The notes under the pieces are model-generated. The model did not search any database, had not been told where the DNA came from, and was given only the letters and a program-made list of their open reading frames with translations. From Robiginitomaculum sp. (GTDB lineage: Bacteria > Pseudomonadota > Alphaproteobacteria > Caulobacterales > Maricaulaceae): a stretch of DNA of 64,000 nucleotides. The DNA is taken from the NCBI GenBank assembly GCA_021776615.1, contig JAJFFO010000012.1, positions 1 to 64,000 of the forward strand, read 5' to 3'. The position numbers were made by a program, and so were the translations under genes. Below are positions 35,808-37,817 of this stretch, piece after piece (within the stretch, counting starts at the first letter, position 1; each line of letters opens with the position of its first letter).

Positions 35808-36443
35808 CTATACGCAAGACACCCCGGTACCCTTCATATTGCAATAGCCTCCCGGCGTCTTAGCCAGATATTGCTGGTGATCTTCCTCGGCATAATAAAA
35901 CGGTACGGCCGCAACAATCTGGGTGGTAATACCGCCCATCTGGTTTTCCGTCAGACGGCTTTGATATTGCTGTTTGGAGGTTTCCGCCAGACGCAATTGC
36001 TGATCATCATTGGCAAAAATGGCGGAACGATATTGCGTCCCAACATCATTGCCCTGACGCATACCTTGTGTCGGGTCATGGTTTTCCCAAAACATCTGCA
36101 ACAATGCCTCATAGGAAATAACGCTCGGATCATAAACAAGGCGTATCGCCTCAGTATGGCCGGTATTGCCAGCACAAACATTGTAATAATTTGGGTTGGT
36201 GTCGTGACCGCCAGCATAGCCGACCATGGTCACCCAAACCCCCTTGGTCTGCCAAAACAACCGCTCGACACCCCAAAAACAGCCCATGGCAAATGTCGCC
36301 ATTTCAAAACCTTGCGGCCATGGCTCAAAAAGCGACCGCCCATTTACCGCATGGGGCGGCAGCGAGTGGGCCACCAAATCCGCCGCTGTGCGGCTATCGG
36401 TTTGCGCTTTATCAACATCAGTTTTGGGCGTGGCTTCATCCAT
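35808..36443 (-). CDS. msrA: Peptide methionine sulfoxide reductase A
   Basis: MsrA reduces (S)-methionine sulfoxide in proteins. The 211-residue product has the catalytic Cys55 in [10 protein letters not shown] and the resolving cysteines near the C-terminus ([13 protein letters not shown]). Length and residues match the E. coli-like class. A 30-residue hydrophilic lead precedes the fold. It may share regulation with the AhpD-like gene 72 bases downstream. Confidence 0.95.
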
Positions 36444-36631
36444 TATCTTTCGTCCTTGAGTGCGCCATACTGAGTAGCGATCTACTATGTAGGTTTTTTA
36501 TTAGCGGTGAAAAGCCCTAATCGACAGACCCGGCAGCGATTGCCGCTAATTCGGTCAAAATCGTCATGTGTTATCTACCCGCGCCGCTCACTTGTCCGCA
36601 GCCATTCCATGGGTATAGTGCGCGCGGCGCT

Positions 36632-36722
36632 GGTGAGGTGGCCGAGTGGTCGAAGGCGCACGCTTGGAAAGCGTGTAGGCGGTGTTCCCGTCTCGTGGGT
36701 TCGAATCCCACTCTCACCGCCA
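36632..36722 (+). tRNA. tRNA-Ser (anticodon GGA)
   Basis: The 91-nt sequence folds as a class II tRNA. The acceptor is GGTGAGG with TCTCACC (one G-U), discriminator G and encoded CCA. The anticodon stem ACGCT/AGCGT holds a loop with GGA. A long variable arm of serine type is present, and the T arm contains GGTTCGAATCCC. A run of seven T follows at 36724-36730, then three copies of a structured repeat. No integrase gene is next to it. Confidence 0.96.
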
Positions 36723-36723
36723 G

Positions 36724-36948
36724 TTTTTTTATCTCGCGGCGCGAAGATGCGCCTCCGATGGGGCGGCGAATGGTCGCCGGGGTGCGGTCGCACCCTGGGG
36801 GTAGGTCTGGGTATGATTCATTTACTTGGATCGTTTTTTATCTCGCGGCGCGAAGATGCGCCTCCGATGGGGCGGCGAATGGTCGCCGGGGCGCGGACGC
36901 ACCCTGGGGGTGGTTGTTTTTATCTCGCGGCGCGAAGATGCGCCTCCG
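36724..36948. repeat. Three copies of a structured repeat downstream of tRNA-Ser
   Basis: Copies lie at 36724-36802, 36834-36912 and 36917-36948 (the last truncated). Each begins with a T run and TATCTCGCGGCGCGAAGAT. Each full copy holds three hairpins: GGCGC/GCGCC, GGCGA/TCGCC and GGGTGCG/CGCACCC, the last with one mismatch in copy two. The first copy starts directly at the tRNA end. Together with 90 further bases they fill the 330 bp to the next gene; I see no protein gene here. Confidence 0.88.
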
Positions 36949-37052
36949 TCGCACGGTTGTGTTTTGGCATCGTAAAATTTGAAATCGTCGCTTAGGCGAA
37001 AGCGTGCTATGCACGGGGTTGGTTTTGTCCGAGCTTTTCGTTGGAGGATTAC

Positions 37053-37817
37053 ATGAACACCTTGAGATCATTGGCCCTGATTGGTGCCATTGCCCTGACC
37101 AGTGCCGCTTGTTCGGCTGATTATAATCAGAGCGCGCCGCAAATAGCCGTTGAAGATACGCGCCGCACGGCCGCGAATGTGGAGCGGGATTCGGCGCGAA
37201 AGCCGGCTGAAGTGCTCAATTTCATTGGATTAAAACAAGATGATACCGTGCTCGACTATGGTTCCGGCGGCGGCTATTGGGCGGAATTGTTTGCTGGTGC
37301 CGTAGGCGATGGCGGGAAAGTATATGCCCACAATAGCAATGGCCAACGGTTTGAATCCCGAAAAGAAGCGTTAGTAAAACAGTATGAAGCTTTCAAAAGC
37401 ATCGAACTGATGCCGGTTGGCAGAGGCGAAACATTGCCAATCGCCGACGGCAGTGTCGACACCATTATGCTTTCCTACCTTATCCATCATCTTCATTATC
37501 AAGAGGCCTCTGGCGATGCTTTGCCGGACAGCTCGGTGGCGTTATTTGAAGAATTTCGCCGTGTGCTCAAGCCCGGTGGCAGTTTCATTATCATCGAGCA
37601 TGTTGCCCAAGATGGCGCAAGCCGGGCGCAGAGCGCGCAATGGCACCGCACACCACCAGAGCTGGCAAAAGCGGATTTGATGGGATTGGGATTTGAGTTT
37701 GTCGCCGATGCGCCGGCAATATATTTCAACCCCGATGATGATCTCGCTAATAATTGGAATGAAGCCGGATTGAGAGGCAAGACCACCAGTTTTGTCCACA
37801 AATACCGCAAACCCTAA
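37053..37817 (+). CDS. SAM-dependent methyltransferase with lipoprotein signal
   Basis: The 254-residue protein begins MNTLRSLALIGAIALTSAAC, a lipoprotein signal with Cys20, and continues as a class I methyltransferase. Motif I is VLDYGSGGGYWAELF. DTIMLSYLIHHLHY and the later VLKPGGSFIIIEH are motifs of the fold. Exported proteins of this type are known (COG4798), but SAM is a cytoplasmic compound, so the true location or activity is unclear. GGAGG precedes the ATG. It stands alone between the repeats and a strong terminator. Confidence 0.86.
   Translation: MNTLRSLALIGAIALTSAACSADYNQSAPQIAVEDTRRTAANVERDSARKPAEVLNFIGLKQDDTVLDYGSGGGYWAELFAGAVGDGGKVYAHNSNGQRFESRKEALVKQYEAFKSIELMPVGRGETLPIADGSVDTIMLSYLIHHLHYQEASGDALPDSSVALFEEFRRVLKPGGSFIIIEHVAQDGASRAQSAQWHRTPPELAKADLMGLGFEFVADAPAIYFNPDDDLANNWNEAGLRGKTTSFVHKYRKP

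Follow-up and report, generated by a model that had tools for sequence, protein, structure and literature searches.

Repeats Trailing Stable RNA Genes

Small repeats that follow stable RNA genes have been recognised in E. coli since 1978, when the tRNA-linked repeats (TLRs) were first described. According to the accessible part of PMC8144298, TLRs are found in tRNA or rRNA operons behind the RNA gene, with one to five units per locus, and their hallmark is that 18-19 bp at the 3′ end of the unit exactly repeat the 3′ terminus of the RNA gene that precedes it. The same part of that source reports small RNAs produced from three TLRs of rRNA operons and gives TLRs no known function before these cases (PMC8144298). 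In Bradyrhizobium, Br-REP1 and Br-REP2 are presented, in the portion of text available, as REP-type repeats of 3′ UTRs (PMC5082802). Among the literature matches listed, repeats trailing tRNA genes in Alphaproteobacteria were undescribed, and the term "tRNA-linked repeats" referred to E. coli only.

The locus considered here belongs to a window of 64,000 nucleotides from Robiginitomaculum sp. (assembly GCA_021776615.1, contig JAJFFO010000012.1, positions 1 to 64,000 of the forward strand), in which three copies of a repeat, designated module A, stand behind tRNA-Ser(GGA). As far as TLRs are described in the accessible text, module A is like them in being a small non-coding repeat placed in tRNA/rRNA transcripts behind the RNA gene, with one to several units per locus. 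Copy 1 of the window begins within 3 nt of the tRNA end, as do 34 of 111 copies from the genus (0-3 nt), and the window holds three units, the last truncated. Regarding the end copy, the best match of window copy 1 to its tRNA is 2 nt, whereas true copies of the host tRNA 3′ end were found in the tails of units behind tRNA-Ser in genome G015 (18 nt) and tRNA-Leu(TAG) in G009 (25 nt), and a copy of 15 nt of a tRNA-Ser end in G241. Set against TLRs as described in that portion of the source, module A differs in having a covarying four-hairpin core that recurs behind many tRNAs and in being accompanied by a second module, B. Compared by description and not by sequence, module A is thus close in habit to the TLRs and may be regarded as their alphaproteobacterial counterpart in a group of marine bacteria; it is not filed as a member, since the 18-19-bp end copy is missing from the window copies.

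The Br-REP repeats share with module A a palindromic nature, an intergenic position near the 3′ ends of transcription units, and a fast-changing copy number in alphaproteobacteria. However, their printed consensus sequences are unlike the module A core by eye, and in the part of the text available neither placement at tRNA ends nor a CCA-ended tail is mentioned, the words "tRNA gene" occurring 0 times (PMC5082802). Genomic islands also have tRNA 3′ ends as a common junction, as seen in the serine-recombinase-type genes of G017 and a segment behind tRNA-Arg in G004, but module A repeats are about 110 nt long, carry no gene and occur in tandem.

The tRNA-Ser(GGA) Locus

An earlier note on this DNA, made from its letters alone, had described three structured repeats directly behind tRNA-Ser(GGA), the last one truncated and none of them part of a gene, and this description was borne out. 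The start of copy 1 falls in the T run, no more than 3 nt behind the CCA; copies 1 and 2 (78 nt each) are 97% identical, and copy 3, cut after its first hairpin, is 32 nt long and matches at 100% over 32 nt. ORFs of 162 and 138 codons cross the tRNA and the repeats and were judged to be non-genes. The features of the locus are as follows.

36592..36619 (+): promoter-like site of the tRNA gene (TTGTCC, 16 nt, TATAGT), from a consensus scan with 9 of 12 matches; weak alone (shuffles give a mean of 0.4 in the region)
36632..36722 (+): tRNA-Ser(GGA) with encoded CCA (ARAGORN; Rfam RF00005, 58.3 bits)
36725..36802 (+): module A copy 1, T run and four-hairpin core (repeat search; 94.5 bits at 36726-36798 with model R2, which was built from sequences including this copy)
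36738..36753 (+): copy 1 hairpin H1, 36738-36742 with 36749-36753 (covariation helix 1, projected onto the window)
36754..36763 (+): copy 1 small hairpin H1.5, 36754-36756 with 36761-36763 (covariation helix 2, projected)
36765..36778 (+): copy 1 hairpin H2, 36765-36768 with 36775-36778 (covariation helix 3, projected)
36780..36795 (+): copy 1 hairpin H3, 36780-36785 with 36790-36795 (covariation helix 4, projected)
36803..36833 (+): spacer or tail of copy 1 (matching the host tRNA over a suffix of 2 nt at best)
36834..36911 (+): module A copy 2 (repeat search; model R2, 90.1 bits at 36835-36907)
36917..36948 (+): module A copy 3, truncated after H1 (repeat search)

The presence of the promoter-like site upstream of the tRNA, together with a sequence scan that found no terminator-like site between tRNA-Ser(GGA) and copy 1, makes it likely that the tRNA and the module A repeats are co-transcribed. 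In relatives, the position of the spacer is frequently occupied by a tail that resembles a tRNA 3′ end and terminates in CCA; this tail is unrecognisable in window copy 1, and no copy of the tRNA end was found in the window copies. Since their tails lack a CCA end and the last copy is truncated, the array looks old or decaying. Of the ORFs adjoining the array, the one at 35808-36443 (-) looks, from a reading of its sequence, like a peptide methionine sulfoxide reductase A, and that at 37041-37817 (+) like a methyltransferase.

A Four-Hairpin Fold Supported by Covariation

The earlier note had assigned three hairpins to each full copy; the hairpins are there, although their number was slightly low, as covariation supports four, with a small one between the first and the second. 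The RNAalifold consensus (6 pairs) missed H1, and the four-hairpin structure was defined by hand from alignment A1, which comprised 80 of the 126 distinct copies collected, once partial, N-containing and near-identical copies had been removed. In A1, this structure pairs in 90.5% of cells, with two-sided changes in 14 of 18 pairs and a covariation score of 0.255 vs. 0.104 in shuffles, the observed values being reached in none of 500 shuffles, and these counts lean towards the structure because it was named by hand after the alignment had been read. When the structure was slid along the alignment, pairing dropped to 43-58%. Alignment A2, formed by 78 matches, 71 of them distinct, from further genera and families, gave 87.9% paired cells, two-sided changes in 16 of 18 pairs, 0 of 500 shuffles and 33-56% for slid versions, counts that lean too, as the A2 sequences were found and aligned by the model. 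The columns 40/49 of H1.5 were found as CG, AU, GC, UG and UA, and the tip of H1 was commonly swapped in A1 for a different self-complementary sequence.

Energy alone was rejected as proof of the fold, the z values being weak evidence (-2.5 for copy 1 with its 3′ flank, -1.1 for copy 1 alone and -0.7 for copy 2), and the structural claim therefore rests on covariation. The conservation of folding suggests that an RNA, or single-stranded DNA, form of module A matters.

A known Rfam RNA family was also rejected, because the repeats stayed below every gathering threshold of the Rfam 15 covariance models, which were passed by tRNA and RNase P RNA only. At E up to 1, the interval 36560-37060 gave sX4 at 40.2 bits (gathering threshold 70), covering the tRNA together with the beginning of copy 1, and, for the opposite strand of the tRNA, a plastid 3′-UTR family. 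A repeat search found no inverted pairs of at least 12 nt in 36300-37300, and MITE-type terminal inverted repeats were thus absent at that length.

Placement of Module A in the Genome and the Genus

The window's own genome (G000; 2.16 Mb in 25 contigs, about 71% complete) contains 24 BLAST matches to the repeat, including the three of the window, and the best one elsewhere has an E value of 8e-27, so the repeats are not a product of chance. According to ARAGORN and Rfam, module A lies in this genome directly 3′ of tRNA-Ser(GGA), tRNA-Glu(TTC), tRNA-Met(CAT) and RNase P RNA, the latter ending at position 1500 and the module A core beginning at 1502; it also stands behind tRNA-Leu(TAA), with a second small module in between. 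Six of the 29 tRNAs found are followed by module A or B in sense orientation at a distance of up to 25 nt, a fraction determined for this genome alone, and over the same distance no module lies 5′ of a tRNA or antisense to it. At another locus of this genome (L020, contig C5, near 194756-194832), a tRNA-Leu(CAA)-like sequence that neither ARAGORN nor the tRNA model called, and that may be a decayed tRNA gene, is followed by modules B and A.

BLAST matches were obtained in 22 of 61 genomes, own included, two of these by matches judged to be chance only (L073, L074). An exact-pattern scan of named genomes returned 22 loci, 18 from Robiginitomaculum sp. and four from one MAG titled Alphaproteobacteria bacterium (Dive100_bin4.84). 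The collection of 126 copies distinct by sequence, 111 of them in 17 genus genomes (G000-G017), left out six overlapping loci, the two chance matches, and the tRNA loci L025-L053 and named loci L082-L103, which were assumed to duplicate genomes already covered.

Whether copies follow other tRNA genes, a point raised by the earlier note, was answered in favour of an association with tRNAs. With copy starts extrapolated to model position 1, 34 of the 111 genus copies start 0-3 nt 3′ of the end of a same-strand tRNA, involving 17 anticodon types in 15 genomes, although 63 have no intact adjoining tRNA. By a rough estimate (40 tRNAs, 2.6 Mb), the chance of such placement is ~5e-5 per random copy, for ~0.006 copies expected, and the copies are therefore not scattered at random. 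A further 14 copies lie in tRNA trailers, seven at 13-51 nt and seven farther along arrays, and in 16 of the 63 copies without an intact tRNA a CCA remains 6-10 nt ahead of the core. A tRNA on the opposite strand within 300 nt of a genus copy was seen in one case. One to three strong module A units per locus were found in the other tRNA loci examined, and in G005 module A follows an rnpB 3′-end sequence, recognised by sequence and not by Rfam. A module A subfamily with another tail, most members of which end in CACCTAGTTA, is dispersed in G008 and G013 and does not stand behind tRNAs (L132, L140, L144, L147, L149, L152, L153, L158, L160, L161).

Module B is unrelated to module A, yet it has the same placement habit. 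A search with its pattern produced 114 matches, spread over 13 of 18 genomes, against none for a reversed control. In a sample of 50 units from the collected loci, biased towards tRNAs, 28 had a same-strand tRNA within 400 nt upstream, and 15 started 11-19 nt behind a tRNA. The module B stem varies between G-C and C-G (25/18) and between T-A and C-G (30/11). One unit was found behind an rnpB 3′-end sequence in G004, again by sequence and not by Rfam.

Tails and CCA Ends

Among the full-length genus copies directly behind tRNAs, 16 of 28 have a CCA ending 26-42 nt past the core, whereas 2000 sets of shuffled tails averaged 5.4 and never exceeded 13, and some tandem units in relatives run from CCA to CCA. 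The tails match the 3′ end of their own host tRNA better than those of others, with a mean score of 4.7 vs. 3.7 (43 direct cases, p<5e-5), and p is 0.006 without the two longest cases; the individual scores were 5-8 in 14 cases and 4 or less in 27. One possible reading of the tRNA-end copy in G015 is a target-site duplication. In one full unit, the tail forms a hairpin in which its CCA is paired. At the tRNA-Ser(GCT) locus L211 of G006, module B units have their own tRNA-Ser-like tail ending in CCGCCA, and a module A unit behind tRNA-Ser in G014 has a tail like these. Judged from these sequences, the heads look exchangeable, with tails that follow the tRNA.

Spread Within and Between Genomes

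The tRNA-Ser(GGA) gene was compared by eye in 15 close matches, 3 of 18 genomes having no close match. Module A trails it in G000 (three copies), G008, G015 and G017, and in shortened form in G014; a module-B-type unit does so in G010 and G005; neither module is present in G003, G004, G007, G009, G012, G013 and G016; and in G002 the contig ends. For 46 of 103 copies, the closest relative outside the own locus came from the same genome, against a mean of 7.9 after shuffling (p<2e-4). For the 48 tRNA-linked copies, it came from the same genome in 14 (mean 2.6, p<2e-4) and from the same tRNA type in six (mean 3.4, p 0.15), and the permutation p values are optimistic because copies of related species are not independent.

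In G006, the segments that follow tRNA-Leu(CAG) and tRNA-Thr(GGT) are homologous, the likeness starting within the tRNA 3′ ends; they are 88-90% alike over ~760 aligned nt, differ in the number of module B units, and could have arisen by segmental duplication or by gene conversion. Between species, no clean empty site matched on both flanks was found. At tRNA-Val and tRNA-Thr, the homology between species stops at the tRNA end and the far side is unmatched, and the "empty" tRNAs of G017 carry islands at their 3′ junction. In this genome, ORFs with serine-recombinase domains end inside tRNA-Lys, tRNA-Val and tRNA-Thr, entering from the 3′ side; Pfam assigned Recombinase and zinc-ribbon domains to all three and Resolvase to one, one domain being just under the cut-off. 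From the tRNA end onwards, tRNA-Lys of G017 and tRNA-Arg of G004 are followed by sequences 95.7% alike over 345 nt (loci of these observations in G017 and G004: L285, L279, L283, L288). The serine-recombinase genes at three tRNA 3′ ends of G017 indicate that such ends are landing sites in the genus.

A Probable Element of tRNA Ends and Its Alternatives

Module A is probably a short, non-autonomous element of conserved structure (about 110 nt when intact), which spreads within genomes and in many cases lands, or is kept, in sense orientation directly behind tRNA CCA ends, and sometimes behind rnpB. This reading draws on what can be observed in the sequences themselves, namely the sense placement at 0-3 nt behind many tRNAs, the four-hairpin fold, the CCA-to-CCA tandems of some relatives, the clustering by genome, and the presence or absence of copies at tRNA-Ser(GGA). 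Among the roles offered by the earlier note, that of a mobile element targeting tRNA ends gives the best fit to the within-genome spread, the patchiness at tRNA-Ser(GGA) and the tandem arrays, but the 63 of 111 copies without an intact tRNA count against it, as do the lack of a clean empty site between species, the lack of an encoded mobiliser linked to the repeats, and a window without a tRNA-end copy. In the tRNA precursor, the copies would make up the transcribed 3′ trailer, and this trailer would fold into separate hairpins, leaving the tRNA and a U-rich gap free for 3′ processing. Movement would occur by recombination at tRNA 3′ ends, mediated by the tRNA-end-like tail of the unit or by a recombinase supplied in trans. 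Since every intact unit would add a CCA end of its own, a possible next landing site, arrays could grow.

The fold kept by compensatory changes in A1 and A2, which reaches other families of the class, speaks for a functional RNA in the tRNA transcript, acting as a 3′-processing, stability or termination signal or as a source of small RNAs, and kept by selection without spreading. The absence of 5′ or antisense copies within 25 nt of tRNAs in the own genome agrees with this, as does the trailing of the same tRNA in several species of genera g9 and g7, e.g., tRNA-Leu(CAA) and tRNA-Arg(ACG), and the small RNAs from three rRNA-operon TLRs of E. coli, as given in the accessible text, offer a parallel (PMC8144298). 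Nevertheless, we consider such a role unlikely, if well short of negligible: module A or B accompanies only six of the 29 tRNAs of the own genome, the tRNA-Ser(GGA) of seven relatives has neither, copies cluster by genome and not by tRNA, and no terminator-like site separates the tRNA from copy 1. Because so few tRNAs carry a module, the general processing or termination signal proposed in the earlier note is unlikely, and a universal tRNA terminator or processing signal was rejected on this count and on the lack of a terminator-like site before copy 1. Passive local duplication at tRNA 3′ ends, by slippage during replication and by gene conversion with no insertion, agrees with the tandem arrays of near-identical units, the likeness of copies within genomes and the paired segments of G006; it seems distinctly improbable, since one copy type stands behind many unrelated tRNAs and rnpB, which have little common sequence, and a placement at 0-3 nt is hard to reach by slippage alone.

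If two unrelated folded modules are both added in sense orientation, and in part from one CCA to the next, where mature stable RNAs (tRNAs and RNase P RNA) have their 3′ ends, a mechanism that reads RNA 3′ ends would be indicated, and an RNA-guided or RNA-templated addition of non-coding DNA behind bacterial tRNA genes may be conceived for both modules, although we regard it as a long shot. More doubtful still is an RNA-borne element, in which unit RNA with a tRNA-like CCA end would be reverse-transcribed and inserted behind stable-RNA 3′ ends. The placement of both modules behind tRNA CCA ends and the rnpB end, the CCA-to-CCA arrays and the selection on the fold speak for it; however, RVT_1 turned up in no more than six of the 18 genus genomes (own included) and in 1 of 11 of good quality, it was not found in the copy-rich G013 and G016, nor in G017, and no insertion was caught in the act. 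A reverse transcriptase of the genome was rejected as the general mover on the basis of the 6 of 18 genomes.

As a covarying and patchy family of more than 100 copies that reaches other families, module A makes testable how non-coding DNA is placed at tRNA ends and whether folded trailers serve the tRNA, and it adds an RNA-like family not shown by Rfam 15 scans.

Range Beyond the Genus

Model R2 found module A in 41 of 119 genomes and 6 of 19 genera of the family (E≤0.001), and in 24 of 385 genomes, own included, and 16 of 277 genera of the class (E≤1e-5), both searches having used stricter filters by which weak matches were lost. Arrays linked to tRNAs occur in the single-contig genomes G065 and G130 and are therefore not assembly artefacts. 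A phage- or plasmid-borne repeat was rejected, as there was no match to the exact pattern in viral contigs, to the consensus unit in plasmids and phages (blastn), or to a distant relative used as query against plasmids.

Among the 23 class genomes besides the own one, a copy immediately follows a tRNA in at least six (G227, G241, G288, G341, G369, G433). ARAGORN found no tRNA in the fetched loci of G155 (3 of 3 matches examined), G382 (4 of 15), G432 (4 of 25) and G501 (3 of 5), with L229 left out of the class loci and no repeat read at L249, L297-L299 and L305, and the linkage to tRNAs is thus not universal. In these four genomes, the distant relatives are located between genes, and many begin with TTTTC-GCTCACG. 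Some distant relatives apparently lie just 3′ of stop codons, as judged by eye (e.g., L234, L235, L238, L241, L291-L294, L301, L302, L306).
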